64,000 bases of DNA from Actinostola sp. cb2023 (lineage: Eukaryota > Cnidaria > Anthozoa > Actiniaria > Actinostolidae), in contig JAUJYZ010000398.1 of assembly GCA_033675265.1 (NCBI GenBank), forward strand, positions 1 through 64,000, read 5' to 3'. The position numbers were made by a program, and so were the translations under genes. Positions 3,934-53,869 of this stretch are shown here, piece after piece. The first letter of the stretch is position 1, and each line of letters begins with the position of its first letter. A model generated the notes under the pieces. It was not told the DNA's origin. It searched no databases and saw only the letters and a list, made by a program, of their open reading frames with translations.

Positions 3934-4100
3934 ATTAATATTTTTACTAACTATTCTGATATTTTCTATTTATATATATACTATTTATTATACAAATTAT
4001 AATTATTTTTAGATGTCACGGCTCTCTGGAAGAGCATTTTTTCCCTTGTAATGAAGAGATTCCGTGTTTAAATAAAGTTTATGTATGTATGTATGTATGT
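2203..4100 (+). mobile_element. 5'-truncated non-LTR (LINE) retrotransposon, copy 1
   Basis: Holds an RT frame, a short AT-rich 3' UTR with AATAAA at 4071-4076, and ends in (ATGT)5 at 4081-4100. A short tandem tail after a polyadenylation-like signal is typical of CR1/L2-type and related LINEs. No apurinic endonuclease domain is present, so the element is truncated at its 5' end, as LINE insertions often are. Equivalent copies end at 8456, 12798 and 17134. Confidence 0.85.
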
Positions 4101-4120
4101 ATCAAGGAACTACTTCCTCC

Positions 4121-5013
4121 ATGAAGACTGTTACAGAAGCAAGGAAGACCTCCGCCTCTGTTATAAGCAAATTATTTGAGGATTTTAAAACCAGCCTGAA
4201 GTCTCTTAACCCGAGGGAGTTGAAGAGACCAACCATACAGAAGAATTCGTTATCGAATTTATCAAGAATGAATATTTTGCAGCCAGACCAAGCCTTCGTC
4301 TTAACACTACTTGATAGGGAGATCCAAAAGCACAATACAGACAACAATGACGATATCGTACTGGTCTTGTCCATATCAAAGTTTGGACAAAAGGAAGAAG
4401 GACAACTAGATGTCAGCGCATTGGTGGATCTCCGTCATGTAGCCTCGGCTTCTGTACACGCCGCCTGTACAATATCTGCCAATAATGAAAACCTTCACCT
4501 TTTTATGGGCCTGTTGCGGCGTTCAAGAAGTCGTCGGTAGGAGAGGGAAGCTATTCACTGCATTAAGTATGTGCGAGGCCACCAACTTCCAGTCAAATCT
4601 TGACGGCCATGCCCTGGACATCACAACGAATCTGCGTTCCATCTTTAACGAGCGTGCTCTCAAATACAGGCTCAATTTTATTCAACTTTACGTTGATGCT
4701 CCTCACGTGCATCTTAAAATGCCATACAAACATCCTGTGAGTGGTACCATCGCCACCTGTGGATTGCTGCACCCAGAAATCAACCGCGCAATGATCAATA
4801 GAGCGCTATCCTATATGGATCACATGGAGCAACTAACGCTCAAACTAGTCAATCGCCTGGATTGCAGAATTGAGCAAGTTGCTTTTTTCCAAAGGCCTAA
4901 CAACATACCGGCAGTTATTGACCCTGCAGCATTGTTCAACCAGGATGCTCTAATGAAACTGCTGACAACACAGCCCATGTTTTTACCCTTCATGGACAAT
5001 ACCAACGGAGAAG
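4121..5013 (+). CDS. Unrecognised exon A, copy 1 (one frameshift)
   Basis: The frame opens at an ATG directly after the LINE tail (MKTVTEARKTSASVIS) and is open for about 139 codons to a stop near 4540. The reading then continues in another frame from about 4485 to the donor-like GAAG|GTAAGC at 5013. A single extra T in a T run near 4500 causes the break; copy 2 lacks that T and reads straight through. No known domain. It is a mostly hydrophilic, mixed alpha/beta-looking protein. Whether it has exons further upstream, displaced by the LINE insertion, cannot be told. Confidence 0.5.
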
Positions 5014-5568
5014 GTAAGCATGTAATAACACAGAGACATATTATTCGTGCATTTCAATAAATAAACTATTGGATTGAAGGTATTTAACTTCGTCAGGCAA
5101 AGGGAATAGACGACCAACGCGTATTCAGACGTTTCGCCGGTGAAGGCTTCATCAGCGGTATATTTGAACTGAAATCACTATCTTAAATAACTTACAATTG
5201 AATTCTGAAATACCCAATGTTATTGGGTTGATTAAACAAAATGCTTTCTATGAAGAAAAAATATTTGAAAAATACACACATCGGGAATCGAACCCAAGAT
5301 ATTTGGCTTGCTAGACCACACTTTACACTTTACACTGTATACTATACTTAGCTAACTGATAAAGATTGATGGACAAAAAAAACTTTTAGCTGTTTTGATG
5401 AAGTTCGTTAACATTGCAGTATACAGAATTGAAAAGCATTTGTTTAGCATTTGCACTTGGGAATTCCGGAACAATTATCTGATTAATGACATCCTTCTCA
5501 TATGACCGTCTTTTTTTAGAAAAACTTTGTCAATATTAAATTAAAATAGTTATTACCTCGGCCTCGGC

Positions 5569-5880
5569 ATTAAGCCCTATACTTCCCAAAAAATATCACT
5601 TGGCTATACTTATAGCGAAAATCACTTGAGGAACTTTATCGGTGTATAAGCGATATAACAAGTGTTAGTGAAGTTTAGAAAACGAGAGGCCGTGTTGTAT
5701 CGGTGGATATAGATACGAGGCGAAGCCGAGCCAGTATCTATATACCCGATACAACACGGCATCGCGTTTTCTAAACTTCACTAACACTTGTTATATCGCT
5801 TATACACCGATAAAGTTCCTCAAGTGATTTTCGCTATAAGTATAGCCAAGTGATATTTTTTGGGAAGTATAGGGCTTAAT
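5569..5880. repeat. 312-bp hairpin, array copy 2
   Basis: Same foldback as at 1216-1527, with identical ATTAAGCCC / GGGCTTAAT ends and the same position between exon A and exon B. Confidence 0.85.
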
Positions 5881-6147
5881 TTAACTACTTTGCTTTGATT
5901 ACTCATGAGGCTCTTTCCAAGGCTTTTATTAGTCCCAAGCACACGCTAGTCTAAAACATCAGTTATTTATTCTAATATCAGTTCTTTATCGGTACTTTAT
6001 TGAAAATATAGGGAAAATACCAAAGAGAATTTTGTTACAAAATGAGCAGGCTTAGGCTCTTACCACCCCGCATCCCCCCTCTCCCCTCCCCCATTCCCCC
6101 CACCCCCAGGGCACGAGTGTACGCTATATTACAGCGTCTAGTTCAGA

Positions 6148-6468
6148 ATGGAAGAAAGAAGGAAGGAATCTTCTTCATTCGTTGACGTAGCAACTGTAAA
6201 TACCGAGTATCTTGTGGAAGAGCGTAGAAAGCATGCAACAACAAAAGAATTCCTCCATTTTGAGGTGCACATTCCTTTTCACTCGTGCAAAATCGATGCT
6301 CCACTACTTCATACGAATCAAGTATTTGACATTGTTGGGGTAGTGTTGGAGATTGATCAGCTTAAGGCCATACGAGGCAGATTGCACTACCTTTTCTTGC
6401 CAAAGCTAGAGGCACACATGATGAAGAATCATTATTTCATTCTTAGAAAACACTTGCCTCTTGATTGA
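6148..6468 (+). CDS. Unrecognised exon B, copy 2
   Basis: 106 codons, ATG to TGA, preceded by the same C-rich acceptor-like tract. It differs from copy 1 by two residues (Asp to Val in the FDIDGVV stretch, Ala to Gly in the IRARLHY stretch). No recognised function. Confidence 0.45.
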   Translation: MEERRKESSSFVDVATVNTEYLVEERRKHATTKEFLHFEVHIPFHSCKIDAPLLHTNQVFDIVGVVLEIDQLKAIRGRLHYLFLPKLEAHMMKNHYFILRKHLPLD

Positions 6469-6555
6469 GTTTAACCATCAAGCGTTGAAATGTCTACGCA
6501 ACTCACAGGGCCATGTTCTTTCCCACCTGGGATGAAGGTTATTTTGTTAATATAA

Positions 6556-8288
6556 GCGTACTACCAAGGTCCAATCTATGATGATCCAAATGATATTAGT
6601 AGTTTTCTAAACAAACACTTCTCGGAGGTTGGATCAACCCTTGCTTCTAAGATTCCAAATACTAGATCAAAAGTAACAGATTTCATTACGCATTCAAAAT
6701 CAACTTTTGAATTAACTACAATTTCAACTGATGACATATCTAAATTAATCAACAAACTTCCAAATAATATAGCCACAGGACTTGATAATATACCATCACG
6801 CCTGCTAAAATTAGCCGCACCGATAATAGTCAGACCTCTGACTTATATAATCAATCTCTCAATCACTACTGGGATTTTTCCTGATGATTGGAAGATTGCT
6901 AAAGTCATCCCTATTTTCAAAGAGGATGACAAGTCAGATCCTAATAACTATAGGCCAATATCTGTTTTACCAGTTGTAAGTAAATTGATTGAAAGAGTGA
7001 TCTTTAACCAGTTATACGCATATCTAAATGAGAATAACCTATTAACTGAGTCTCAATCTGGTTTCAGGCCAGGGTTTTCTGTGGAAACCTGTTTGTTAGA
7101 AGAAACAAACGAATGGTACAAAAATATTGACAACAATTTCTTAAACGGTGTGATCTTTGTGGATCTGAAAAAAGCTTTCGATTCCCTGGACCATCAGATA
7201 TTGCTGGAGAAATTGAAACTTTATGGTATTAAGCCAAACTCCTTAGACTGGTTTAAATCCTATCTCACCGATCGTAAACAGAAAACCTTGGCAAATGGGA
7301 CACTCTCAAATCACTATTGTACTCTAAACTATGGCATTCCTCAGGGATCATCTATACTGGGACCTTTGTTATTTACCATATACATAAATGACCTCCCCGC
7401 TTGTCATTTGTACAAAAAAACGAGAATGTACGCCGATGACACCACTCTGTCATTGGCATCACAGGACTCTTCTGCTCTACAATGCCAAATGAACCAGGAC
7501 TTAAACACCATTCAAACCTGGTTAAATGCTAATAAATTAACTCTCAATGTTAAAAAATCTAAATTTATGTTGATTGGAAGCTCGTTCAAGCTTTCTCAAG
7601 TACATCAAGATTTTAAAGTCGAAATAAATAATGTACAGTTAAAAAGGGAAACAGTCTATAGATCCCTCGGAATTCAACTAGACGAAAACCTAAACTGGTA
7701 CTCGCATATTGACACTATTTCTAAGAAAATTTCTGCAGGACTAGCAGTTCTAAAACGAGTCACTCCTGTTATTCCTTTTGAAACTAGAGTGTGTCTCTAT
7801 AGGGCCTCAATACTTCCATACCTTGATTACTGTTCTACTGTATGGGGGACCATCGGTAAGGGCCTATCAGACAAACTCCAAAAAAACTACAAAACAGAGC
7901 TGCTAAAATCATATCCTTCCCAAATATTAATGATAAACATTCTGAGGAGTTATTGGATGACCTTGGCTGGGATAGACTTCACCTTAGGAGAGCTAATCAC
8001 CTTAGGAGAGCTAATCAACTAGCCACTATGATGTACAAAATACAAAATGATCTTACTCCAGGTTATCTGAAAAATATATTTAATAATACTTCAAATATAC
8101 ATTCACATAATTTAAGAAACTCAAAAAACAGTCTTCACATTCCCAGACCTATTACTGAAGCTGGGAAGTGTACTTTAAACTATAGAGGATCTGTTACCTG
8201 GAACAAGATCCCTACAGAGGTGAAAGATAAATCAAGTTTGAAAGCTTTCAAATCTGCCCTAGTTAAACTAAACACTTTAAATACTTGA
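6556..8288 (+). pseudogene. LINE reverse transcriptase, copy 2 (frameshifted)
   Basis: Near-identical to copy 1, with the YADD box intact. Two extra A's in the A run at about 7879-7885 throw the frame, so the thumb and C-terminal region continue in a second frame (about 7953-8288). It shares the six-codon duplication with copy 1. The 3' end with (ATGT)5 is at 8456. The indel is in a homopolymer, so a consensus error is possible. Confidence 0.85.
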
Positions 8289-8476
8289 ATTAATATTTTT
8301 ACTAACTATTCTGATATTTTCTATTTATATATATACTATTTATTATACAAATTATAATTATTTTTAGATGTCACGGCTCTCTGGAAGAGCATTTTTTTCC
8401 CTTGTAATGAAGAGATTCCGTGTTTAAATAAAGTTTATGTATGTATGTATGTATGTATCAAGGAACTACTTCCTCC

Positions 8477-9370
8477 ATGAAGACTGTTACAGAAGCAAGG
8501 AAGACCTCCGCCTCTCTGTTATAAGCAAATTATTTGAGGATTTTAAAACCAGCCTGAAGTCTCTTAACCCGAGGGAGTTGAAGAGACCAACCATACAGAA
8601 GAATTCGTTATCGAATTTATCAAGAATGAATATTTTGCAGCCAGACCAAGCCTTCGTCTTAACACTACTTGATAGGGAGATCCAAAAGCACAATACAGAC
8701 AACAATGACGATATCGTACTGGTCTTGTCCATATCAAAGTTTGGACAAAAGGAAGAAGGACAACTAGATGTCAGCGCATTGGTGGATCTCCGTCATGTAG
8801 CCTCGGCTTCTGTACACGCCGCCTGTACAATATCTGCCAATAATGAAAACCTTCACCTTTTATGGGCCTGTTGCGGCGTTCAAGAAGTCGTCGGTAGGAG
8901 AGGGAAGCTATTCACTGCATTAAGTATGTGCGAGGCCACCAACTTCCAGTCAAATCTTGACGGCCATGCCCTGGACATCACAACGAATCTGCGTTCCATC
9001 TTTAACGAGCGTGCTCTCAAATACAGGCTCAATTTTATTCAACTTTACGTTGATGCTCCTCACGTGCATCTTAAAATGCCATACAAACATCCTGTGAGTG
9101 GTACCATCGCCACCTGTGGATTGCTGCACCCAGAAATCAACCGCGCAATGATCAATAGAGCGCTATCCTATATGGATCACATGGAGCAACTAACGCTCAA
9201 ACTAGTCAATCGCCTGGATTGCAGAATTGAGCAAGTTGCTTTTTTCCAAAGGCCTAACAACATACCGGCAGTTATTGACCCTGCAGCATTGTTCAACCAG
9301 GATGCTCTAATGAAACTGCTGACAACACAGCCCATGTTTTTACCCTTCATGGACAATACCAACGGAGAAG
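8477..9370 (+). CDS. Unrecognised exon A, copy 2 (longest continuous frame)
   Basis: This copy lacks the extra T that breaks the others, so about 300 codons read continuously from VISKLFEDF to the donor-like site after 9370. It is the best guide to the protein. However, a CT insertion near 8514 puts the ATG at 8477 out of phase with the rest; the open frame instead extends back into the LINE tail. No domain is recognised. Conserved-looking stretches are NDDIVLVLSISKFG, WACCGVQEVVG and CGLLHPEINRAM. Confidence 0.5.
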
Positions 9371-9925
9371 GTAAGCATGTAATAACACAGAGACATATTA
9401 TTCGTGCATTTCAATAAATAAACTATTGGATTGAAGGTATTTAACTTCGTCAGGCAAAGGGAATAGACGACCAACGCGTATTCAGACGTTTCGCCGGTGA
9501 AGGCTTCATCAGCGGTATATTTGAACTGAAATCACTATCTTAAATAACTTACAATTGAATTCTGAAATACCCAATGTTATTGGGTTGATTAAACAAAATG
9601 CTTTCTATGAAGAAAAAATATTTGAAAAATACACACATCGGGAATCGAACCCAAGATATTTGGCTTGCTAGACCACACTTTACACTTTACACTGTATACT
9701 ATACTTAGCTAACTGATAAAGATTGATGGACAAAAAAAACTTTTAGCTGTTTTGATGAAGTTCGTTAACATTGCAGTATACAGAATTGAAAAGCATTTGT
9801 TTAGCATTTGCACTTGGGAATTCCGGAACAATTATCTGATTAATGACATCCTTCTCATATGACCGTCTTTTTTTAGAAAAACTTTGTCAATATTAAATTA
9901 AAATAGTTATTACCTCGGCCTCGGC

Positions 9926-10237
9926 ATTAAGCCCTATACTTCCCAAAAAATATCACTTGGCTATACTTATAGCGAAAATCACTTGAGGAACTTTATCGGT
10001 GTATAAGCGATATAACAAGTGTTAGTGAAGTTTAGAAAACGAGAGGCCGTGTTGTATCGGTGGATATAGATACGAGGCGAAGCCGAGCCAGTATCTATAT
10101 ACCCGATACAACACGGCATCGCGTTTTCTAAACTTCACTAACACTTGTTATATCGCTTATACACCGATAAAGTTCCTCAAGTGATTTTCGCTATAAGTAT
10201 AGCCAAGTGATATTTTTTGGGAAGTATAGGGCTTAAT
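9926..10237. repeat. 312-bp hairpin, array copy 3
   Basis: Same foldback and ends as at 1216-1527. Confidence 0.85.
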
Positions 10238-10506
10238 TTAACTACTTTGCTTTGATTACTCATGAGGCTCTTTCCAAGGCTTTTATTAGTCCCAAGCACA
10301 CGCTAGTCTAAAAAACATCAGTTATTTATTCTAATATCAGTTCTTTATCGGTACTTTATTGAAAATATAGGGAAAATACCAAAGAGAATTTTGTTACAAA
10401 ATGAGCAGGCTTAGGCTCTTACCACCCCGCATCCCCCCTCTCCCCTCCCCCATTCCCCCCACCCCCAGGGCACGAGTGTACGCTATATTACAGCGTCTAG
10501 TTCAGA

Positions 10507-10827
10507 ATGGAAGAAAGAAGGAAGGAATCTTCTTCATTCGTTGACGTAGCAACTGTAAATACCGAGTATCTTGTGGAAGAGCGTAGAAAGCATGCAACAA
10601 CAAAAGAATTCCTCCATTTTGAGGTGCACATTCCTTTTCACTCGTGCAAAATCGATGCTCCACTACTTCATACGAATCAAGTATTTGACATTGATGGGGT
10701 AGTGTTGGAGATTGATCAGCTTAAGGCCATACGAGGCAGATTGCACTACCTTTTCTTGCCAAAGCTAGAGGCACACATGATGAAGAATCATTATTTCATT
10801 CTTAGAAAACACTTGCCTCTTGATTGA
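10507..10827 (+). CDS. Unrecognised exon B, copy 3
   Basis: 106-codon frame identical to copy 4 and one or two residues from copies 1 and 2. Same acceptor-like tract upstream. Function unknown. Confidence 0.45.
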   Translation: MEERRKESSSFVDVATVNTEYLVEERRKHATTKEFLHFEVHIPFHSCKIDAPLLHTNQVFDIDGVVLEIDQLKAIRGRLHYLFLPKLEAHMMKNHYFILRKHLPLD

Positions 10828-10914
10828 GTTTAACCATCAAGCGTTGAAATGTCTACGCAACTCACAGGGCCATGTTCTTTCCCACCTGGGATGAAGGTTA
10901 TTTTGTTAATATAA

Positions 10915-12631
10915 GCGTACTACCAAGGTCCAATCTATGATGATCCAAATGATATTAGTAGTTTTCTAAACAAACACTTCTCGGAGGTTGGATCAACCCT
11001 TGCTTCTAAGATTCCAAATACTAGATCAAAAGTAACAGATTTCATTACGCATTCAAAATCAACTTTTGAATTAACTACAATTTCAACTGATGACATATCT
11101 AAATTAATCAACAAACTTCCAAATAATATAGCCACAGGACTTGATAATATACCATCACGCCTGCTAAAATTAGCCGCACCGATAATAGTCAGACCTCTGA
11201 CTTATATAATCAATCTCTCAATCACTACTGGGATTTTTCCTGATGATTGGAAGATTGCTAAAGTCATCCCTATTTTCAAAGAGGATGACAAGTCAGATCC
11301 TAATAACTATAGGCCAATATCTGTTTTACCAGTTGTAAGTAAATTGATTGAAAGAGTGATCTTTAACCAGTTATACGCATATCTAAATGAGAATAACCTA
11401 TTAACTGAGTCTCAATCTGGTTTCAGGCCAGGGTTTTCTGTGGAAACCTGTTTGTTAGAAGAAACAAACGAATGGTACAAAAATATTGACAACAATTTTC
11501 TTAAACGGTGTGATCTTTGTGGATCTGAAAAAAGCTTTCGATTCCCTGGACCATCAGATATTGCTGGAGAAATTGAAACTTTATGGTATTAAGCCAAACT
11601 CCTTAGACTGGTTTAAATCCTATCTCACCGATCGTAAACAGAAAACCTTGGCAAATGGGACACTCTCAAATCACTATTGTACTCTAAACTATGGCATTCC
11701 TCAGGGATCATCTATACTGGGACCTTTGTTATTTACCATATACATAAATGACCTCCCCGCTTGTCATTTGTACAAAAAAACCGAGAATGTACGCCGATGA
11801 CACCACTCTGTCATTGGCATCACAGGACTCTTCTGCTCTACAATGCCAAATGAACCAGGACTTAAACACCATTCAAACCTGGTTAAATGCTAATAAATTA
11901 ACTCTCAATGTTAAAAAATCTAAATTTATGTTGATTGGAAGCTCGTTCAAGCTTTCTCAAGTACATCAAGATTTTAAAGTCGAAATAAATAATGTACAGT
12001 TAAAAAGGGAACAACAGTCTATAGATCCCTCGGAATTCAACTAGACGAAAACCTAAACTGGTACTCGCATATTGACACTATTTCTAAGAAAATTTCTGCA
12101 GGACTAGCAGTTCTAAAACGAGTCACTCCTGTTATTCCTTTTGAAACTAGAGTGTGTCTCTATAGGGCCTCAATACTTCCATACCTTGATTACTGTTCTA
12201 CTGTATGGGGGACCATCGGTAAGGGCCTATCAGACAAACTCCAAAAACTACAAAACAGAGCTGCTAAAATCATATCCTTCCCAAATATTAATGATAAACA
12301 TTCTGAGGAGTTATTGGATGACCTTGGCTGGGATAGACTTCACCTTAGGAGAGCTAATCAACTAGCCACTATGATGTACAAAATACAAAATGATCTTACT
12401 CCAGGTTATCTGAAAAATATATTTAATAATACTTCAAATATACATTCACATAATTTAAGAAACTCAAAAAACAGTCTTCACATTCCCAGACCTATTACTG
12501 AAGCTGGGAAGTGTACTTTAAACTATAGAGGATCTGTTACCTGGAACAAGATCCCTACAGAGGTGAAAGATAAATCAAGTTTGAAAGCTTTCAAATCTGC
12601 CCTAGTTAAACTAAACACTTTAAATACTTGA
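10915..12631 (+). pseudogene. LINE reverse transcriptase, copy 3 (three frame breaks)
   Basis: The frame is broken by an extra T near 11,500 (before FLNGVIFVDL), by an inserted base near 11,780 (just before MYADDTTL), and by extra bases near 12,010 (after VQLKRE). All RT motifs are present when read across frames. It lacks the six-codon duplication found in copies 1 and 2. The LINE 3' tail ends at 12798. Confidence 0.85.
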
Positions 12632-12818
12632 ATTAATATTTTTACTAACTATTCTGATATTTTCTATTTATATATATACTATTTATTATACAAATTATAA
12701 TTATTTTTAGATGTCACGGCTCTCTGGAAGAGCATTTTTTTCCTTGTAATGAAGAGATTCCGTGTTTAAATAAAGTTTATGTATGTATGTATGTATGTAT
12801 CAAGGAACTACTGCCTCC

Positions 12819-13711
12819 ATGAAGACTGTTACAGAAGCAAGGAAGACCTCCGCCTCTGTTATAAGCAAATTATTTGAGGATTTTAAAACCAGCCTGAAGT
12901 CTCTTAACCCGAGGGAGTTGAAGAGACCAACCATACAGAAGAATTCGTTATCGAATTTATCAAGAATGAATATTTTGCAGCCAGACCAAGCCTTCGTCTT
13001 AACACTACTTGATAGGGAGATCCAAAAGCACAATACAGACAACAATGACGATATCGTACTGGTCTTGTCCATATCAAAGTTTGGACAAAAGGAAGAAGGA
13101 CAACTAGATGTCAGCGCATTGGTGGATCTCCGTCATGTAGCCTCGGCTTCTGTACACGCCGCCTGTACAATATCTGCCAATAATGAAAACCTTCACCTCT
13201 TTATGGGCCTGTTGCGGCGTTCAAGAAGTCGTCGGTAGGAGAGGGAAGCTATTCACTGCATTAAGTATGTGCGAGGCCACCAACTTCCAGTCAAATCTTG
13301 ACGGCCATGCCCTGGACATCACAACGAATCTGCGTTCCATCTTTAACGAGCGTGCTCTCAAATACAGGCTCAATTTTATTCAACTTTACGTTGATGCTCC
13401 TCACGTGCATCTTAAAATGCCATACAAACATCCTGTGAGTGGTACCATCGCCACCTGTGGATTGCTGCACCCAGAAATCAACCGCGCAATGATCAATAGA
13501 GCGCTATCCTATATGGATCACATGGAGCAACTAACGCTCAAACTAGTCAATCGCCTGGATTGCAGAATTGAGCAAGTTGCTTTTTTCCAAAGGCCTAACA
13601 ACATACCGGCAGTTATTGACCCTGCAGCATTGTTCAACCAGGATGCTCTAATGAAACTGCTGACAACACAGCCCATGTTTTTACCCTTCATGGACAATAC
13701 CAACGGAGAAG
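12819..13711 (+). CDS. Unrecognised exon A, copy 3 (one frameshift)
   Basis: Starts at the ATG after the LINE tail and carries the same internal frame break as copies 0, 1 and 4 (here CTCTTT in place of the T run). The donor-like GAAG|GTAAGC follows 13711. It shares the ACTGCC variant near the start with copy 4, against ACTTCC in copies 1 and 2. Confidence 0.5.
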
Positions 13712-14266
13712 GTAAGCATGTAATAACACAGAGACATATTATTCGTGCATTTCAATAAATAAACTATTGGATTGAAGGTATTTAACTTCGTCAGGCAAAG
13801 GGAATAGACGACCAACGCGTATTCAGACGTTTCGCCGGTGAAGGCTTCATCAGCGGTATATTTGAACTGAAATCACTATCTTAAATAACTTACAATTGAA
13901 TTCTGAAATACCCAATGTTATTGGGTTGATTAAACAAAATGCTTTCTATGAAGAAAAAATATTTGAAAAATACACACATCGGGAATCGAACCCAAGATAT
14001 TTGGCTTGCTAGACCACACTTTACACTTTACACTGTATACTATACTTAGCTAACTGATAAAGATTGATGGACAAAAAAAACTTTTAGCTGTTTTGATGAA
14101 GTTCGTTAACATTGCAGTATACAGAATTGAAAAGCATTTGTTTAGCATTTGCACTTGGGAATTCCGGAACAATTATCTGATTAATGACATCCTTCTCATA
14201 TGACCGTCTTTTTTTAGAAAAACTTTGTCAATATTAAATTAAAATAGTTATTACCTCGGCCTCGGC

Positions 14267-14578
14267 ATTAAGCCCTATACTTCCCAAAAAATATCACTTG
14301 GCTATACTTATAGCGAAAATCACTTGAGGAACTTTATCGGTGTATAAGCGATATAACAAGTGTTAGTGAAGTTTAGAAAACGAGAGGCCGTGTTGTATCG
14401 GTGGATATAGATACGAGGCGAAGCCGAGCCAGTATCTATATACCCGATACAACACGGCATCGCGTTTTCTAAACTTCACTAACACTTGTTATATCGCTTA
14501 TACACCGATAAAGTTCCTCAAGTGATTTTCGCTATAAGTATAGCCAAGTGATATTTTTTGGGAAGTATAGGGCTTAAT
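14267..14578. repeat. 312-bp hairpin, array copy 4
   Basis: Same foldback and ends as at 1216-1527. It is absent after the fifth exon A, where the array ends first. Confidence 0.85.
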
Positions 14579-14845
14579 TTAACTACTTTGCTTTGATTAC
14601 TCATGAGGCTCTTTCCAAGGCTTTTATTAGTCCCAAGCACACGCTAGTCTAAAACATCAGTTATTTATTCTAATATCAGTTCTTTATCGGTACTTTATTG
14701 AAAATATAGGGAAAATACCAAAGAGAATTTTGTTACAAAATGAGCAGGCTTAGGCTCTTACCACCCCGCATCCCCCCTCTCCCCTCCCCCATTCCCCCCA
14801 CCCCCAGGGCACGAGTGTACGCTATATTACAGCGTCTAGTTCAGA

Positions 14846-15166
14846 ATGGAAGAAAGAAGGAAGGAATCTTCTTCATTCGTTGACGTAGCAACTGTAAATA
14901 CCGAGTATCTTGTGGAAGAGCGTAGAAAGCATGCAACAACAAAAGAATTCCTCCATTTTGAGGTGCACATTCCTTTTCACTCGTGCAAAATCGATGCTCC
15001 ACTACTTCATACGAATCAAGTATTTGACATTGATGGGGTAGTGTTGGAGATTGATCAGCTTAAGGCCATACGAGGCAGATTGCACTACCTTTTCTTGCCA
15101 AAGCTAGAGGCACACATGATGAAGAATCATTATTTCATTCTTAGAAAACACTTGCCTCTTGATTGA
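14846..15166 (+). CDS. Unrecognised exon B, copy 4
   Basis: 106-codon frame identical in protein to copy 3, with the same upstream C-rich acceptor-like tract. Function unknown. Confidence 0.45.
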   Translation: MEERRKESSSFVDVATVNTEYLVEERRKHATTKEFLHFEVHIPFHSCKIDAPLLHTNQVFDIDGVVLEIDQLKAIRGRLHYLFLPKLEAHMMKNHYFILRKHLPLD

Positions 15167-15253
15167 GTTTAACCATCAAGCGTTGAAATGTCTACGCAAC
15201 TCACAGGGCCATGTTCTTTCCCACCTGGGATGAAGGTTATTTTGTTAATATAA

Positions 15254-16967
15254 GCGTACTACCAAGGTCCAATCTATGATGATCCAAATGATATTAGTAG
15301 TTTTCTAAACAAACACTTCTCGGAGGTTGGATCAACCCTTGCTTCTAAGATTCCAAATACTAGATCAAAAGTAACAGATTTCATTACGCATTCAAAATCA
15401 ACTTTTGAATTAACTACAATTTCAACTGATGACATATCTAAATTAATCAACAAACTTCCAAATAATATAGCCACAGGACTTGATAATATACCATCACGCC
15501 TGCTAAAATTAGCCGCACCGATAATAGTCAGACCTCTGACTTATATAATCAATCTCTCAATCACTACTGGGATTTTTCCTGATGATTGGAAGATTGCTAA
15601 AGTCATCCCTATTTTCAAAGAGGATGACAAGTCAGATCCTAATAACTATAGGCCAATATCTGTTTTACCAGTTGTAAGTAAATTGATTGAAAGAGTGATC
15701 TTTAACCAGTTATACGCATATCTAAATGAGAATAACCTATTAACTGAGTCTCAATCTGGTTTCAGGCCAGGGTTTTCTGTGGAAACCTGTTTGTTAGAAG
15801 AAACAAACGAATGGTACAAAAATATTGACAACAATTTCTTAAACGGTGTGATCTTTGTGGATCTGAAAAAAGCTTTCGATTCCCTGGACCATCAGATATT
15901 GCTGGAGAAATTGAAACTTTATGGTATTAAGCCAAACTCCTTAGACTGGTTTAAATCCTATCTCACCGATCGTAAACAGAAAACCTTGGCAAATGGGACA
16001 CTCTCAAATCACTATTGTACTCTAAACTATGGCATTCCTCAGGGATCATCTATACTGGGACCTTTGTTATTTACCATATACATAAATGACCTCCCCGCTT
16101 GTCATTTGTACAAAAAACCGAGAATGTACGCCGATGACACCACTCTGTCATTGGCATCACAGGACTCTTCTGCTCTACAATGCCAAATGAACCAGGACTT
16201 AAACACCATTCAAACCTGGTTAAATGCTAATAAATTAACTCTCAATGTTAAAAAATCTAAATTTATGTTGATTGGAAGCTCGTTCAAGCTTTCTCAAGTA
16301 CATCAAGATTTTAAAGTCGAAATAAATAATGTACAGTTAAAAAGGGAAACAGTCTATAGATCCCTCGGAATTCAACTAGACGAAAACCTAAACTGGTACT
16401 CGCATATTGACACTATTTCTAAGAAAATTTCTGCAGGACTAGCAGTTCTAAAACGAGTCACTCCTGTTGTTCCTTTTGAAACTAGAGTGTGTCTCTATAG
16501 GGCCTCAATACTTCCATACCTTGATTACTGTTCTACTGTATGGGGGACCATCGGTAAGGGCCTATCAGACAAACTCCAAAAACTACAAAACAGAGCTGCT
16601 AAAATCATATCCTTCCAAATATTAATGATAAACATTCTGAGGAGTTATTGGATGACCTTGGCTGGGATAGACTTCACCTTAGGAGAGCTAATCAACTAGC
16701 CACTATGATGTACAAAATACAAAATGATCTTACTCCAGGTTATCTGAAAAAAATATATTTAATAATACTTCAAATATACATTCACATAATTTAAGAAACT
16801 CAAAAAACAGTCTTCACATTCCCAGACCTATTACTGAAGCTGGGAAGTGTACTTTAAACTATAGAGGATCTGTTACCTGGAACAAGATCCCTACAGTGGT
16901 GAAAGATAAATCAAGTTTGAAAGCTTTCAAATCTGCCCTAGTTAAACTAAACACTTTAAATACTTGA
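15254..16967 (+). pseudogene. LINE reverse transcriptase, copy 4 (frameshifted)
   Basis: Intact through the YADD box and most of the thumb. A one-base loss near 16,615 (CCTTCC run) shifts the frame, and an A-run expansion near 16,750 shifts it again. It lacks the six-codon duplication, as copy 3 does. The LINE tail ends at 17134. Confidence 0.85.
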
Positions 16968-17154
16968 ATTAATATTTTTACTAACTATTCTGATATTTTC
17001 TATTTATATATATACTATTTATTATACAAATTATAATTATTTTTAGATGTCACGGCTCTCTGGAAGAGCATTTTTTTCCTTGTAATGAAGAGATTCCGTG
17101 TTTAAATAAAGTTTATGTATGTATGTATGTATGTATCAAGGAACTACTGCCTCC

Positions 17155-18047
17155 ATGAAGACTGTTACAGAAGCAAGGAAGACCTCCGCCTCTGTTATAA
17201 GCAAATTATTTGAGGATTTTAAAACCAGCCTGAAGTCTCTTAACCCGAGGGAGTTGAAGAGACCAACCATACAGAAGAATTCGTTATCGAATTTATCAAG
17301 AATGAATATTTTGCAGCCAGACCAAGCCTTCGTCTTAACACTACTTGATAGGGAGATCCAAAAGCACAATACAGACAACAATGACGATATCGTACTGGTC
17401 TTGTCCATATCAAAGTTTGGACAAAAGGAAGAAGGACAACTAGATGTCAGCGCATTGGTGGATCTCCGTCATGTAGCCTCGGCTTCTGTACACGCCGCCT
17501 GTACAATATCTGCCAATAATGAAAACCTTCACCTCTTTATGGGCCTGTTGCGGCGTTCAAGAAGTCGTCGGTAGGAGAGGGAAGCTATTCACTGCATTAA
17601 GTATGTGCGAGGCCACCAACTTCCAGTCAAATCTTGACGGCCATGCCCTGGACATCACAACGAATCTGCGTTCCATCTTTAACGAGCGTGCTCTCAAATA
17701 CAGGCTCAATTTTATTCAACTTTACGTTGATGCTCCTCACGTGCATCTTAAAATGCCATACAAACATCCTGTGAGTGGTACCATCGCCACCTGTGGATTG
17801 CTGCACCCAGAAATCAACCGCGCAATGATCAATAGAGCGCTATCCTATATGGATCACATGGAGCAACTAATGCTCAAACTAGTCAATCGCCTGGATTGCA
17901 GAATTGAGCAAGTTGCTTTTTTCCAAAGGCCTAACAACATACCGGCAGTTATTGACCCTGCAGCATTGTTCAACCAGGATGCTCTAATGAAACTGCTGAC
18001 AACACAGCCCATGTTTTTACCCTTCATGGACAATACCAACGGAGAAG
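17155..18047 (+). CDS. Unrecognised exon A, copy 4 (last in array, one frameshift)
   Basis: Same layout as copy 3, with the shared CTCTTT frame break and a Thr-to-Met change in MEQLMLKLVNR. The donor-like GAAG|GTAAGC follows 18047. No exon B follows, because the array ends at about 18,372; if this is a gene, the copy lacks its downstream exon. Confidence 0.5.
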
Positions 18048-18372
18048 GTAAGCATGTAATAACACAGAGACATATTATTCGTGCATTTCAATAAATAAAC
18101 TATTGGATTGAAGGTATTTAACTTCGTCAGGCAAAGGGAATAGACGACAAACGCGTATTCAGACGTTTCGCCGGTGAAGGCTTCATCAGCGGTATATTTG
18201 AACTGAAATCACTATCTTAAATACTTACAATTGAATTCTGAAATACCCAATGTTATTGGGTTGATTAAACAAAATGCTTTCTATGAAGAAAAAATATTTG
18301 AAAAATACACACATCGGGAATCGAACCCAAGATATTTGGCTTGCTAGACCACACTTTACACTGTATACTATA

Positions 18373-19538: not shown

Positions 19539-19544
19539 CACAAC

Positions 19545-19880
19545 TATGGTGGCCGAGAACTGCCATCATAAAAAAGAGAAAAATATTGCTCGGATTTTTT
19601 TAATTTTTTTATTTTTTTATTTTTTCATATATTTTCATTTCATTTCAAATTTTAATTATTTACTTTTATTTGTTTTTATTTTATTTTTCAATTCTAATTG
19701 CGATAAAAAGGAAATTGTTTTTCGTTTTTCCCCTGCTTCTTTCATTTCATTTCATTTTCGTTTCTGTTTTATTTCGTTTCGTTTGTTTTGTTTTCGTTTG
19801 TTTTGTTTTTCTTTGAAAAAAGTCTCGTACGTGGCCGAAGTGTCGAGCGGTCCTGGATTCTAGTCTGTGTGTTCAAAATG
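19545..19880 (+). repeat. Left terminal inverted repeat of the 7.4-kb transposon
   Basis: Matches the reverse complement of 26,571-26,937 over its whole length, with small indels in the T-rich middle. It runs from TATGGTGGCCGAG through an AT-rich tract to TTCAAAATGGCG. The inner boundary falls on the start codon of the kinase, so this repeat supplies the 5' flank of that gene and probably its promoter. Confidence 0.9.
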
Positions 19881-22800
19881 GCGTCGAAGAACTCGCGTAA
19901 TGACTGGCTCAAGTATAATCAGGCTATTAAAGAAAAGAGAACTAAGAAGACCACTTCAAAAGAAAAAACTCAAAGAAAATTCCAAGGAAACTTCCTAACC
20001 ATTCAGCGTTTGTCACCTGATGTTTCTGGCAGGGCCCAAAAGTACGCGAGAGATGGACCACGTGAATTCGTACCAATCGACTCGAGTCAAGATGTAACCT
20101 TGGAAAACATAAAACGCGCCTGTGAAGACTACTTCGAATCCAGAATTGGACCAAACCTTACATGTGATGTGTTAGCAGGAGAACGTGGGCCATCATGCAA
20201 GGCAGTTGATCAGATTCCAGACTTAAAGATTATCCACATAAGGTTTGTCGGCAAAGCAACTTATGAAAGCATCGTTGACAGTGATGCGGCCTCACCTAGT
20301 GGTAGTCAACATTCATCAGCAGCGGCCTCTGCTAGTGCTGAAGGGGAAAACCGAGCAAGATTCCCCGCCCCGATACTGATAGCCCAACCAAATTTCTTTA
20401 AGCTTGTCTGTAACAGAGATGATCAAATTGGGTAAATTAGGTGCTTGTGAAGCCCAAACCACTACAGTTGTCAACATTTATACGTTTGATCTGAGCTCGA
20501 GGTCATGGTCACGAGTACCAATAACCGTAGAATTCCAGGAAGAAAGTAAACCATGCGGCAAAGGTGGATTTCGAAAGGCATACAAGGTGACAAGTAAACA
20601 TCCTGAATTCAGGAATAAAACTTGGGTTATGAAGAAATACCTGCCCAAAGCCAAAGAAGAAATCGAAACACTAGGCCTGACATTGAAGGAACATACAAAG
20701 AAAACTGTTCAGATGCATCTCTTAGCGAGAAACTTTGCATTTCAGCTGGAGAGAAGCATCAAGGAAGAAGATCTCCAAACGTTCGGAAAATCTCTCAAGT
20801 ACACAGGCAGCCCAACCATTGCTTTTGAGGCTAATAAAAATATATTTGCGTCTTTTTTGACGGGTTTCCTGTGGTAGAGCGCGCGCGCGATACGCCGGTA
20901 TTATATTGGGTTCCCTGTGCATAGAAATGTATAATGTTGGGATCCCTGTGTACGCCCTGCGGGACGCGCCCGCAGCAAATGTGTATATTGAAACAAGGTG
21001 TGAAACTGATGGCGTATCATGGCCTGATGTGCGGTACCTGCAGCTGGTGCACTTTTCCGTGAGCCGAAGAGGCGAAGTCGTCGCACGCTACAGGCCCGTG
21101 GGGGGTACCCAGGATAAAGTCGCTGAAGTTTTGAAAAATGGCGGAGAAGTTGATGAAACAAAACATGATTTTTTCGGTGTAATCGTTTGGATTCTATTCC
21201 TTATCCATGGTAAGTTTAGAAGTTCACAATTCATGTCAACTTTACGTAACTTTAGAAGAAGCTCGACGGGTTTAAAGTAGCCTTTTTTCATTTTGAATGG
21301 TGGAGAATTGTATGTTGTGCTCGACACACGACAGTTTTGTTGAAAAGTAAGCTGAACTAAATATGTTTTCTGAAGTGTTTTCTTGAGGTTTTAGTGGTTT
21401 TTGCTCTAACTGTTCTCTAATAAAAGCACTTGCCTATACTAGGGCAGAAGGGCTGCTTAATAATCCTCAGCAAATCAGTTATTTTTTATAACTTATGACT
21501 GAGCTATTTGACTTGTGTAGTTGTCAGTGATCGAAATATATAAGCTTACACTACATGAAAAGGAACCTATAGCTCTCAAATGACTGATAGTTCTTCATCT
21601 GCTTAAACATTATGACTCTCATCTACAAAGTGTTTGACGTTATTTTGTACTTTCTTACAGGACTTCTTAAAACAACAGCATAAATTATCTGAAGCAAAAA
21701 ATGCCAAAATATAGACGAACTCAAATTCACCGACTTCGAAGGAGTCATGAATGGAGATGGACTCATGAAGCTGCCGTGAACTAAAATATTAACAGTTGTT
21801 CATTATTGTCATTGACTGTAGCACAACTCATTTTGCAAATATTATCATCTGAGAGAAACACAGAGTAATTTTAAATACGGTTTTCGTAAGAACGTAAGTA
21901 AGCTTATCCGTTATCGCTTTCAACTCCGATGTTTGTTATTCATTCACAACTTGTCGATCGTATTTAATATCCATGTTATTACTGATCAATATAGTGAATA
22001 AAATTGTACAGAAAGAATGGAAAAACAGTGTGTAAAATGCTGGTAAACTTATTTTAACTGATTGTTGAAATAAATACGTCTGTTTGTCATTTAGTTTAAT
22101 AAGCACTGATAGCAAAAATGTGTTGTGCAGGACTAAATATTGAGACTATTCAGCATTTATAAAACACATTGCCTCAATTTTAAAACATTTTAATCGATAA
22201 AAATCAAAACACAATACAAATACTTTATAAAAATCAAAACAGAAAACAAATAAAGTATATTGTAGATGTTTTGACTTATGTTTAGTGAACATATAAATAT
22301 TAAAACTTGCAAAAAAGAGCACAATGCAGATTTGCCGAGCGCTGGCGATGTCCTCTCGAAGGTAAAATCCGACTGCTTCACGGAAAAGTGCACCAGCTGC
22401 GTGTACCGCACATCGGTCCATGAGGCGCAATATGTCAAAATTAAAATTTCTCAGCGTATGGTGAAGTTATACAGCTGAAACTTATGAAGTGTTTAGAGAA
22501 TACGGTAAAGTTTAGTTATTCGAAGAAAAATTGAATTTTCACGTCATATTGACAAAGATTAGGAGCAAAAACGTATTTGTCACGTGACCGAGTTTCATAC
22601 CTTGTTTCAATATACACATGTACTGGATGTACTGCGGGACGCGCGGGATGCGCACAGGGATCCCAACATCATACATTTCTATGCACAGGGAACCCAATAT
22701 AATACGTATCGCGCGCGCGTTCTACCACAGGAAACCCATCAAAAAAAGACGTGCGCATACTAATATATTTTTATTTAGTATGAGTAGCCTCAGAAACAAT

Positions 22801-23223
22801 GGTTGGGCTGCCTGTGTCAAGTACAGAAAGATTTTTTATGGGGAAACCAAGGGGGAAACTAATGATGCGGAGGTCTTGGACTTTGTAACAGTAGAAGAAT
22901 TTATTGATGGCGATTTTGTAAAATACATTAACAATAACGGTATAACCTGTGTCGATCCATCTGATGTTAATGCACAAAAGGCACAGTGTCTTACGCACTA
23001 TACATATATAAAGTCTGAACAAGAGTTGATGCTTTTAGATGTTCAGGGGAGTGGAGAAGATTTATATGATCCAGAGATGGCTTCAACTCAGCTCTTTGAT
23101 GATAACCAGGCTATTTTATATTGTATTGGTAACCTCTCCAAGATTGCAATTAAAAACTTTGTAGAGGATCACAAGTGCAACAAGTATTGTCAATTGGTTG
23201 GACTACGACCTCTTACTGAGTAG
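19878..23223 (+). CDS. Alpha-kinase, split by a transposon and frameshifted
   Basis: Starts MASKNSRNDWLKYNQ at the inner edge of the TIR. Parts are 19,878 to about 20,435, a one-base frame change near 20,400, about 20,404-20,801, then 22,824-23,223. An unrecognised N-terminal region of about 180 residues precedes the alpha-kinase domain. The N-lobe shows the Gly-rich GKGGFRKAYKV and the lysine strand WVMKKYLPK. The C-lobe shows VEEFIDGDFVKYINNNG, the LMLLDVQGSGEDLYDPEMAS loop, and the HKCNKYCQLVGL His/Cys cluster typical of the alpha-kinase zinc module. These are the hallmarks of the eEF2K/myosin-heavy-chain-kinase family of Ser/Thr kinases. The foldback insert at 20,802-22,816 interrupts the codon series between the lobes; the flanks agree across its target duplication. 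Its substrate cannot be inferred. Confidence 0.88.
20802..22816. mobile_element. 2.0-kb foldback transposon inside the kinase gene
   Basis: The ends are CACAGGCAGCCCAACCATTG and its exact reverse complement. The 7-bp sequence TCAAGTA is duplicated at 20,795-20,801 and 22,817-22,823. The arms extend about 270 bp on the left (to ~21,075) and 440 bp on the right (from ~22,378); the left arm has lost about 150 bp relative to the right. Both arms contain CGCGCGCG and GGGTTCCCTGTGCATAGAAA. The interior has no transposase. A possible small spliced frame runs 21,119-21,210 with a GTAAGT donor. Non-autonomous; superfamily undetermined. Confidence 0.88.
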
Positions 23224-24286
23224 GTAAAAACTAGCTATATGGGAACTAGACATTAAGATCATGCTGATCTTCTTTGATTTGTCAATAATATTGATACAAA
23301 ATCTTGATCTTTGTTAATGTTACTGTTAACTTGCTATTGTTAATGCCAATACTTCCTCTTGAACATTGCACGACATCACAAACAAATATTTGTATGTTTA
23401 TATGTGTCTGAAAACAGTTTAAACTCTAAGAAAATATTATTATAAGTTACTTTCAAGACAGTGATTTAATGTACTGTTCAAAACATATTTTCCTCAATTT
23501 TGATGAGGTATGACAAATGCTTAAAGCTAATTTGCATATTTCAGATGTTTTATTATGGTTTAAACTTTTTTCAGACATATAACAAAAAAATAAAGTTATA
23601 ATAACTTTTTTTTTTGTCATTGCAAGGGGTCTACATGTTTGTGTTCCAAGAAGATACTTGATTTATAGGGCATATTATTGCAAAATTGGCAAGCTGCTTT
23701 TAAAAAGTGCCTATCCAGTCAAATTTTCATTTTGAAAATAAGTGTGTAGTGATTTATGGTTTGTGATTTCTTGATATGTTGACTTGTAAGTTCATTTTCT
23801 GAGTTATAAAATGCAAATGAGATGACATCGAACAAGGGTTTTACCTACATTTATTGTGTGTTTTACAAGAAGTGCTCTTGGATGAAATCACCGATAATTC
23901 TACATGACTTACAAGTATTAATCTGTACATTTCAGCTTTAATGTAAGAAAAGGATTTGCAAATGTAAAACTAGCAGTAATTTGCGTAAGGGTGCTTTTGT
24001 AGAGGAATGAAGCATTTGATGTCATCAAAAAAGCATACAGTACATGTATGACAATTTGAACCTTCTTTTTAAAAAGATGTTTAAAAAGTCCAGGTCCATG
24101 AACCATCTAAGTAATCACTTCACTAAAACTGATTTGAGTGGATAGGCACTTCAGTTATTACAGAATAAATTTACCAGTACATGTAAGCAAGTTATTGAAA
24201 AATGTTCTTATATGTTCACTGTTAAAACTTGTTATTCAGTTAATTTTGTAACAAATATATTATTCATGAACAATAAATCAATGAAT
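23224..24286. other. Spacer between convergent kinase and transposase genes
   Basis: AT-rich sequence without a supported gene. It contains an inverted-repeat pair, AAGTGCCTATCCA at 23,705-23,717 and its complement ending at 24,151, which may bound a 447-bp MITE. It probably holds both 3' UTRs. Confidence 0.55.
23705..24151. mobile_element. Possible MITE with 13-bp TIRs
   Basis: AAGTGCCTATCCA and TGGATAGGCACTT face each other 447 bp apart. The interior is AT-rich and non-coding. No clear target duplication is seen, so the call rests on the TIR pair only. Confidence 0.5.
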
Positions 24287-25341
24287 TTACTGAGAGACTT
24301 GAGGAAAATTTCTTTTTAGCAAAATAAACATTTTACTGCAATCTTTAGGCTCAATATTTTCTGGGTCTGGTACAATGCGTTCACATTCCCTTCTAAAATC
24401 TGGATGCAGGAAGTCATCTGAAACCTCTAGAGCACCAGACATAACTGCAGCTTCATGTAGCTGATCATCTGTAAGAGGTAGACCTGCAAAGAATGTGGTA
24501 TTTTAACCCAGACTTTTTAACCTTTGCTACTTTTTAAAAAGTTCAGAAGTAAAGAATCAGGTACACTAGTGTGATGGCACTTAACCCATGAAACTAAATC
24601 TAATAGTTAGTGACAAAACAAAAGAAAACAATGGAATTAGTGATATATACTTGGTTAATATCTGTTTCATGGGTTAAGTGCCATCACTCTAATAATAATA
24701 ATATTAATAATAATAATATTTATTCAAACCGTATACCAATACAAGTACATCAGCATTAATTGACAAGTGATAAAGAAAGAGCGAGGAGAAAATACAATCA
24801 TATATGCAAGATATATACTAAATTGTTGACAACATCATGTAACTAAATGTCTTTTGGGAAATCAAATGTGTACACTGGAGTGATCAATGCAATATTGTCC
24901 TATATTGAAACTCTGGAATTTTCCCTTAGCTATACCCCTGATTTATGATGTCCTAAGTTCCACAACCCCACCATATATAACTATAAATATAATCACTTTT
25001 GACATTGTGATGAGATTCCTCATTAACCTACCACATTCGTCAAGACCATACACTTCTGGAAATGCATGTATATGGTTTGGTACACCATCTGGGAGCACTG
25101 TGTCTTTTTGACATCTGATGCGGTGAGTATTCCAGATAGTGTCTTTAAAGACATCAAGCTCTTTTTGCAACAGTGGAATCATAAGATAAGCTAACAACAT
25201 TCTAAAATAGAAATGGGGTATCAATCAATCAACATTATTTGCAATTTGATTTTTAAAAGTATAAGACAGTACAGTAATCCATTGACCTGCAAATAGCTGT
25301 AACTAATATTGCATTATACAGTCAAACCTCTACTAATGGCC

Positions 25342-25377
<36 letters not shown>

Positions 25378-26519
25378 CCCAACCAGGGCATAATATACAA
25401 GGCATCCCTAGCTTCACTGAATATCCACACTTGGTTTCAAAGGATACATGTATATATTTGGGGACATTTTTATGTCCAAGATCTACTTTGCTCTCCACTT
25501 CTTTATTGTCAGAAAATAATACCTACCTATCCAATTCATCATGAGGATTATAGTGGCACTGATCAACAAGACGCCGAAGATGCTCTTTGTAGTACTTTTC
25601 CATGCGCTCGTGGAGTTCTTTCCACCATCTTTCAATCTATATCAAGATATGAAAGCATCGACTTTATTACAATATTATAAATTTATAATGGGGAAGAATG
25701 AGACCAGAAGTGACATTATAACACATTCCCTTTCCTTTAGCAAAATGTACGATTTAATTTTTAGGATTTCAATATACCAATGATTCGATCTCTCATAATC
25801 TAGATACTTCAGACATTCCATTGTACTGATTTGTCACTCATTCTCATGATGATCTTGTGGAATGAGTTAATGAAAATTATGTTGACTATGTTGACTATAT
25901 AATTATTCATAACAAAATTAATTACCTGATTGGATGTGGAGACACCAAAGATAACTGTATCCTCGGGTTCTATTCCATCATCGTGATTTCTTCTCAAGAA
26001 AGCATGCATCGTGGCCATTGTACCCGTTTCAGTACCTTTGTCAATTCGTATCATGCTCGCTATGGTCTTGACTTCAACCAGGTAATCCAAATAAAATCGC
26101 GCAATTATTCTCGGATCTGAATTAGTTACCCAAATACGAAGCCAAAGTATCTTTCGACTCGCAGTGTCAATACATCCATAGATAGCAAGCGGAAAAGTAC
26201 TGTTTTGGTATCCCATAAGCTTGTCATGTCCGTCGAGAGAATGTACCCAATTCGGACCCTTGGAAGTAAAGCTTCCTTTCTTTTTACCCTTTTTTGCTCC
26301 AACGCCACCACGAGCCTTCAAGCCACTTGGATCAAGATCAGTCATTACATTGTAAACAGCATCTCGCGATACCAATATATTATGTTTTTGCCTGATCTTT
26401 TTGTGCATTGCTCTATAACCGAGCAGCTTTCCAGGGCCGGCCAGCTCCTTCTTCACAGCTTCTTTTACCTCTTCCACACTTGTCTGGCGATCATTGTAGA
26501 ATATGCTGAAGTGACGCAA
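24287..26519 (-). CDS. Integrase-like DDE transposase, four exons
   Basis: Minus-strand exons by splice sites and continuous frame: 26,519-25,926, 25,636-25,527, 25,201-25,032, 24,483-24,287, ending in TAA; all introns are GT...AG. The integrase-type core shows WVHSLDGHDKLMGYQ (first Asp), MIRIDKGTETGTMA (second Asp, with GTE), and across the first splice NQ|IERWWKELHERME (catalytic Glu). LGYRAMHKKIRQ and WLRIWVTNSDP precede and follow in the usual order. The C-terminal exons carry WNTHRIRCQ and YGLDECG. About 340 residues are visible. An ATG at the TIR inner edge (26,586) is out of frame with the core, and the usual N-terminal helix-turn-helix is missing or reduced, so the 5' part is probably damaged. 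Role: cutting and joining the element's ends. Confidence 0.85.
24567..24691. mobile_element. MITE with ~27-bp TIRs, TA-flanked
   Basis: GTGTGATGGCACTTAACCC and its complement enclose a short AT-rich core, with TA at both edges. It lies in the last intron of the transposase. The right end runs into an AAT/AATATT microsatellite (24,691-24,723). Its ends resemble the TAGAGTG MITE group seen at 36-39 kb. Confidence 0.7.
25343..25380. repeat. Poly-C tract (C32, T, C5)
   Basis: An unbroken run of 32 C's, one T and five more C's in a transposase intron. The complementary strand is a G run able to form quadruplexes. The exact length is likely to be unreliable. Confidence 0.9.
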
Positions 26520-26570
26520 ACGCCGATCCAGCGAACGATTCTAAATCGTCCTTCCATGCATCCGTGGCGT

Positions 26571-26937
26571 CCGCCATTTTGAACACACAGACTAGAATCC
26601 AGGACCGCTCGACACTGGCAGCTTTCGGCCGATGGCAGTCTTCGGCCACGTACGAGACTTTTTTCAAAGAAAAAACAAAACAAACGAAAACAAAACAAAC
26701 GAAACGAAATAAAACAGAAACGAAAATGAAATGAAATGAAAGAAGCAGGGGAAAAACGAAAACAATTTCCTTTTTATCGCAATTAGAATTGAAAAATAAA
26801 ATAAAAACAAATAAAAATAAATAATTAAAATTTGAAATGAAATGAAAATATATGAAAAAAAGAAAAAAAAAGAAAAAAAATTAAAATCCGAGCGATACTT
26901 TTCTCTTTTTTTATGATGGCAGTTCTCGGCCACCATA
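26571..26937 (-). repeat. Right terminal inverted repeat of the 7.4-kb transposon
   Basis: Reverse complement of the left TIR, slightly longer because a sub-terminal motif is duplicated: 26,617-26,652 read on the minus strand contains GGCCGAAGACTGCCATC and then GGCCGAAAGCTGCCA, echoing the extreme end GGCCGAGAACTGCCATC. The inner edge again ends at an ATGGCG. Confidence 0.9.
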
Positions 26938-27375
26938 CACAACTCTTCCCCATTTTTGCCAATCAAAAATATTTTAGATAGCTTTTTAGACAGCATAGTT
27001 TTTAATATTTCTGCTCACAAAACTTGGGAGATCTATAGTAGATTTCGAGTTAATGAAGCATCAAACTTGCTAATACAGGAAAATATACTAGGTTTAAAGT
27101 GTATATCACCTGAAATTTTTTGTTATTTCTATGAAAAGTCTTAGATAAGTAGAAAATAATTTTAAAAGTTTGGAACGAAAATCACAACATTATCATCGTA
27201 TTTTTGGCTCGCAAAGTTCGTAAAAGAGCCAAATTTCCGAGCTTACAAAGAGGACTGGTACGAGTGGCTCGTGACGTCATCGCAGGGATCACTTCTCTTG
27301 GTCAACAAAGAAACACACGAGAGTTCACGAGAGTCTACTTGTAGTTGGTTTCAGTTGGTTTAGTTTTCCCTGAAT

Positions 27376-51402: not shown

Positions 51403-51770
51403 TGAGTATACAGAAGTTGTGGTCAGCAGCTTATCAACGAAATTCAAGATGGCAGACGTACGTAACGATAAATCAAATCACCAGCAGCATTCAAAAAGGA
51501 TTTTGCCGTGCTCCCTTGCTCGAGCCAGTCGAGTCGTTCATTAATACTGCTTAGTAAATATGCAAATATCCTAGAGAATACTTTTTGGCCTTGCAATAGC
51601 GTTCCACACTAACTCTAAAAATAGATTTCGTCATATGAGACCCCCCGCCAAGACTCGGACAAACAAATCGATAGTTTTACAAAGCGAGTGTGAGCGGCTG
51701 AACCAAAATATTACGTCTTATCCCTTTTCAAGCACCAAAATACAGCTTAGATCAGATAAAGTACACAGAA

Positions 51771-53314: not shown

Positions 53315-53411
53315 CTAAATGTACACATGTGCACTGCTACTTTTAGTACAGGTGGTTGAGACCATGTATGGTCTAAATAAAAATCACTATATCTATTGTT
53401 GTTGTCTTTGG

Positions 53412-53547
53412 TAGAGTGCAAACAATATAACTGTGAAATAGTACAAGTATTAAATAGTACTAATAGTGTTGTTTGCCATAAGTTTCAACAGTGCTAATTA
53501 GTACTAAATAGTTAGTGCAATTTCACGGTTATATTGTTTGCACTCTA
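53412..53547. mobile_element. TAGAGTG-family MITE
   Basis: TAGAGTGCAAACAATATAAC to GTTATATTGTTTGCACTCTA, 136 bp, same family as at 38,639. Located between the two convergent genes of the 5.2-kb transposon. Confidence 0.8.
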
Positions 53548-53760
53548 AAGTACAAACACTAAATAAAAATGGCAATGATTTCTACTAAATGGCACTAAAC
53601 AACTATAAGTAAACAATAGAGATATCACTATTTACAGTGCGACGACTTCAACCGGGACCACTTACTAGACAATGAGAATGCTATCTGCTGATTGGCTGAA
53701 GTACACATTTGAAAATGGAATTGTTTTCATGTGAATTGTGATTGGTTCTCGTTGTCCAAG

Positions 53761-53850: not shown

Positions 53851-53869
53851 TTATTATCCAAACAATAAG

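Follow-up and report, generated by a model that had tools for sequence, protein, structure and literature searches.

An IS3EU-type DNA transposon carrying two genes in convergent layout, one for an alpha-kinase and one for an integrase-like transposase, occupies positions 19545-26937 of the first 64,000 nucleotides of contig JAUJYZ010000398.1 from the actiniarian Actinostola sp. cb2023 (assembly GCA_033675265.1); this whole stretch is hereafter called the window. The element is bounded by terminal inverted repeats (TIRs), whose outermost 31 nt (19545-19575 and 26907-26937) are inverted without a mismatch and whose complete arms of 339 and 366 nt are identical in 330 of 369 alignment columns (Table 1). 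The 20-nt end sequence, with up to three mismatches allowed, occurred twice in the window and never in 100 shuffles, and is therefore not expected by chance. The termini, TATGG starting at 19545 and CCATA ending at 26937, have the TA..TA, TAYGG..CCRTA form of IS3EU; the TIRs are longer than 30 bp, and a 6-bp target site duplication (TSD), CACAAC, is identical on the two sides. A preliminary description of this DNA had proposed a transposon with complete borders and a kinase as cargo, and had assigned it to IS3EU. The TIRs, the TSD, and both genes were found again and, together with a DDE transposase that has no HHCC motif, they confirm a genuine two-gene IS3EU transposon.

The transposase gene lies on the minus strand in four exons separated by three introns, all with GT-AG borders, and encodes 408 amino acids in the intact copy (locus L014 on contig C1188). 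Exon 1 matched the Pfam family rva_4 (cut-off 26 bits) in L014 (31.1 bits) and the window (30 bits); the exon 1 of a second family of copies, family B below, scored 18.8 bits, under the cut-off, and HTH_21 was under its own cut-off for all three. The catalytic residues D148 and D212 were present in 91 of 91 alignment rows and E252 in 89 of 91, which, with the rva_4 match, identifies an IS3/integrase-like DDE transposase. Residues 1-145 include no Cys, i.e., no HHCC zinc motif precedes the core. P0125, an NCBI protein belonging to family B, shows the same joins for exons 1 to 3 and stops without exon 4; its residues agree with these three exons as read from the family-B transposase in L009-L011. 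The four-exon integrase-like gene that had been read from the letters was upheld, but its exon 1 in the window is 98 bp shorter; those 98 bp are kept in the other family-A copies on C578, C1188, and C330.

The alpha-kinase gene, on the plus strand, forms a single open frame of 442 amino acids in L014, and its product matched PF02816 over profile positions 1-185 of 185 (1.5e-32, 113.6 bits, cut-off 21.3). The ATP lysine, the DxQ motif, and the zinc motif HxCxxxC are present, and we take their roles to be those they have in TRPM7 and MHCKA. Furthermore, a structural model of the relative P0003 matched the alpha-kinase fold (Foldseek to 1ia9, E 2.4e-17). The N-terminal domain of the kinase is conserved and possibly has a beta-grasp fold. 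The kinase landmarks previously ascribed to this gene hold for the sister copy on C1188, which has the domain over the whole profile; in the window the gene itself is broken.

The window copy is a dead relic, with a broken kinase gene that also holds a nested insertion and a transposase exon 1 that has suffered a deletion. The kinase frame breaks in its first half relative to both P0001, an intact sister protein, and L014. The nested element is flanked by TCAAGTAC at 20795-20802 and 22817-22824, and L014 represents the empty site; it is hAT-like, by TSD length only. The frames of both genes are open in the sister copy on C1188.

Other copies were sought in the whole genome (424 Mb, 1594 contigs), where 67 exact end sites gave 20 convergent pairs within 11 kb, the window's pair included. 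The TSD was intact in 16 of the 20, with one mismatch at C790, two at C702, and none recognisable at C1048 and C584. All six pairs longer than 5 kb held both genes convergently, most with defects; three belong to family A (C271, C578, and C1188) and three to family B (C347, C614, and C1405). Between the families, the kinases are 43-45% identical and the transposases 67-78%. In family A the start codons of both genes lie in the inner TIR edge, and in family B the arms, identical over 462 nt, stop 48 and 116 bp short of them. Parts of both genes remain in C330 (3.5 kb). Copies without a whole kinase do exist, as short or fold-back derivatives: C521 (L015) is a fold-back, 4.6 kb to the nearest right end, in which the transposase gene occurs twice, inverted, and the kinase is absent. 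The remaining 12 pairs are short (0.3-2.1 kb); 11 of them have stretches resembling the N-terminal domain of the kinase, and transposase fragments were seen only in that on C1048. A genome in which copies lacked the kinase and kinase genes sat elsewhere without TIRs had been named as the outcome that would speak against the element's ownership of the gene; this was not what we found, and that ownership is supported.

Several of these loci have features of their own. On C521 (517-6747) the right end and its flank occur three times with 836-bp spacing. C1048 (L019) combines a family-B left end with the right end of another family and has no recognisable TSD, and its ends are thus chimeric. End copies at 507 and 8398 of C1201 (L017) have mirror-image flanks, which suggests that a single insertion locus was duplicated in inverted orientation. 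The last 8 nt of the left flank are identical in C298 (L034) and L014, perhaps two haplotypes of one insertion.

The linkage of the two genes was subsequently examined across the genome by protein. The kinase search gave at least 94 matches, merged to 59 loci; from at least 108 transposase rows, 102 were used, comprising 28 close (at least 42% identity) and 74 distant (at most 37%) ones. A family kinase lay within 12 kb of 18 of the 28 close transposases (within 4.2 kb for 17), convergently in 16 of the 18, and within 12 kb of none of the 74 distant ones. Conversely, 17 of the 59 kinase loci had a close transposase within 12 kb, and C1077, C1135, C910, and C1506 were added as linked loci from the flanks (1.5 kb) of the top 30 kinase matches. 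The same two-gene layout, whose recurrence in other copies had been suggested as a check, was thus found repeatedly, and because the pairing recurs across this animal genome, the kinase appears to be a functional component of the element rather than chance cargo. The distant set itself consists of integrase-like transposases (30-37% identity), mostly in long open frames.

Table 1 Features of the two-gene element in the window.
Feature	Position	Strand	Basis
Left TSD, CACAAC	19539-19544		End comparison
Left TIR; kinase start codon 19878-19880 in inner edge	19545-19883	+	Inverted-repeat search, arm alignment
Alpha-kinase, N-terminal domain and first half of kinase domain; frame breaks ~20340-20400	19878-20802	+	tblastn with P0001, comparison with L014
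Nested transposable element in kinase gene, 2014 bp, long imperfect TIRs	20803-22816		Inverted repeats, empty site in L014
Alpha-kinase, second half (DVQG, YDPE, HxCxxxC) and stop	22817-23223	+	tblastn with P0001, motifs
Transposase exon 4, carries stop	24287-24483	-	Homology, splice sites
Transposase exon 3	25032-25201	-	Homology, splice sites
Transposase exon 2 (third catalytic residue, IERWW)	25527-25636	-	Homology, alignment
Transposase exon 1 (helix-turn-helix, first two catalytic Asp); 98-bp deletion near 26538	25926-26577	-	Comparison with other copies, Pfam
Right TIR; transposase start codon 26577-26575 in inner edge	26572-26937	-	Inverted-repeat search, arm alignment
Right TSD, CACAAC	26938-26943		End comparison

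Elsewhere in the window, a unit of about 4.35 kb is repeated four times head to tail at positions 2203-18094, and every unit has a reverse-transcriptase open reading frame (ORF) and a second repeated ORF. One ORF of each kind was scanned: the reverse transcriptase of the first unit matched RVT_1 (3.3e-34), and the other ORF gave no Pfam match. The region 51702-56558 contains a Harbinger-like DDE_Tnp_4 ORF with weak THAP and HTH_Tnp_4 matches, as well as a YqaJ-like recombinase ORF (1.6e-17) on the minus strand.

Database relatives of the kinase numbered 142, and 294 with a profile of divergent members. Those named among the best 120 of each list are cnidarian (Exaiptasia, Dendronephthya, Paramuricea, Desmophyllum, Stylophora, Actinia, and Actinostola) and tunicate (Ciona and Phallusia); no fungal kinase was recognisable by name among them, so the relation of fungal to animal kinases is taken here from PMC12730594 alone. 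No kinase relative was confirmed among 112 pattern stretches in viral contigs or 130 in prokaryote genomes, and a viral fold library gave no match at E of 0.001 or lower. The transposase had 550 relatives, the best 120 including Actinostola, Exaiptasia, Dendronephthya, Clytia, Acropora, Porites, Ciona, and the mollusc Patella. In Exaiptasia, the kinase and transposase genes have near locus numbers and contigs of equal size. Six contig sizes above 4 kb occurred in both the kinase and the transposase list (mean 0.08 and maximum 2 in 400 offset controls), and we infer that equal sizes mark the same contigs.

In a tree, 47 chosen kinase rows formed one side against segments of TRPM7, MHCKA, and eEF2K (96/95, with long outgroup branches). 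For seven chosen pairs, kinase and transposase distances correlated (r 0.65, reached by 82 of 5040 permutations), with one clear conflict among family A, family B, and Exaiptasia. On these distances the partnership looks old, and kinases may have been exchanged between elements. Recent capture of the kinase by the window element is unlikely, since the layout is common to two diverged families and the same N-terminal domain is present in many relatives. The ratio of nonsynonymous to synonymous substitution rates was uninformative on selection, with too few changes within families and mostly saturated sites between them.

Taken together, the findings are probably best explained by a two-gene IS3EU transposon that expresses both proteins jointly, moves by cut-and-paste, and uses an active kinase, perhaps with a target in the host. 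Because the inner TIR edge holds the start codons in family A or ends shortly before them in family B, the two TIR copies may serve as shared promoters, from which both genes would be transcribed and the two proteins made together. The transposase would then cut and paste the element, and the kinase would act as a Ser/Thr kinase docked on a partner by its N-terminal, possibly beta-grasp, domain. By phosphorylating a host nuclear factor, such as a silencing, repair, or cell-cycle protein, it may permit transposition or resist silencing. Should the other steps hold, such a host factor has a nearly even chance of being the target, and the transposase itself a somewhat smaller one. The former is slightly favoured because the kinase diverges faster than the transposase between families A and B, as would a partner following a changing host. 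In a broader and tentative reading, which we rate a little short of even, the alpha-kinase would be an old and indispensable second protein in an IS3EU lineage extending from fungi to animals: a signalling enzyme encoded by the transposon that is docked through its beta-grasp domain, reprogrammes a host pathway so that transposition can proceed, and has given rise to many of the expanded alpha-kinase families of cnidarians and rust fungi.

The kinase might instead act on the transposase or its complex, controlling activity, nuclear entry, or copy number. In its favour, the two genes begin at the TIRs, are repeatedly found as a pair, and have correlated distances; against it, the kinase changes faster than the transposase that would be its substrate, and one pairing is discordant. 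We consider this reading unlikely. A role confined to counter-silencing (anti-piRNA or anti-chromatin), dispensable for cut-and-paste and thus a sub-case of the best explanation, appears equally doubtful: it agrees with the fast divergence of the kinase and with its neighbours in fungal IS3EU, where the TET/JBP genes adjoining the alpha-kinase have been proposed to aid escape from methylation-based silencing (PMC12730594), but our data do not distinguish it from other host-facing roles.

That the kinase is neutral cargo, a captured host gene hitch-hiking or merely lying next to the element, is very improbable. Passive movement of TET/JBP genes among fungal elements has been suggested (PMC12730594), and 10 of the 28 close transposases have no kinase nearby; against this stand the recurrence of the layout at other loci and in both diverged families, the equal-sized contigs elsewhere, the retained catalytic residues, and the absence of the kinase near any distant transposase. 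Chance or neighbour capture was accordingly ruled out on the copies and the genome-wide linkage. The least probable reading takes the matches for ordinary host alpha-kinases (of TRPM6/7, eEF2K, or vwkA type) near repeats, as database names such as "transient receptor potential cation channel subfamily M member 6-like", "Eukaryotic elongation factor 2 kinase", and "alpha-protein kinase vwkA-like" would have it. The matches nevertheless align over the element's N-terminal domain, stand apart from host kinases in the tree, and are TIR-bounded in the element's own genome.

The open frames of C1188 make a transposon's need for its own protein kinase testable in animals. For annotators, some cnidarian genes named TRPM6-like, eEF2K, or vwkA-like may be transposon genes. 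Alpha-kinases are treated as an expanded or enriched family in rust fungi (PMC4469406, PMC5295586), with 79 and 39 genes in a table row of PMC4469406 that we read as the two rusts; by extension, this expansion perhaps also consists of IS3EU genes.

The preliminary description knew of no element carrying both genes, which proved wrong: Kojima (2025, PMC12730594) describes fungal TET+ IS3EU families that all have a TET/JBP gene between a transposase and an alpha-kinase in opposite orientation, those of rust fungi with 6-bp TSDs and TAYGG..CCRTA ends. The element described here shares with them the 6-bp TSD, TIRs above 30 bp, the termini, and the opposed transposase and alpha-kinase, and differs in its animal host. 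In the roughly 1.1 kb between the two genes of L014 we noticed no ORF of 80 or more amino acids and no TET/JBP gene, although small exons are possible and no domain search was made there. Beyond PMC12730594, the literature searched gave no alpha-kinase in a transposon; animal cases may stand in subscription papers or Repbase Reports.

The ends, TSD, and transposase are likewise those of the IS3EU/GingerRoot superfamily, which has TA..TA ends, usually a 6-bp TSD, and a DDE transposase without the HHCC motif (PMC10045372, whose main text lacks the word kinase). The Oxytricha TBE are also DNA transposons with a kinase-domain accessory protein, a 57-kDa product with zinc-finger and kinase domains under purifying selection, but they pair this zinc-finger-bearing protein with a Tc1/mariner transposase (PMC4724952, PMC12242761). 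TRPM7, MHCKA, eEF2K, and ALPK1 share the domain, fold, and catalytic and zinc motifs; they differ in being host proteins, and the enzyme of the element carries a conserved N-terminal domain of its own. The pairing of the two genes is thus already known for fungal IS3EU, to which this work adds animal members, genome-wide linkage, evidence that certain cnidarian genes named TRPM6-like or eEF2K belong to transposons, the conserved and possibly beta-grasp N-terminal domain, and start codons at the TIR edge.

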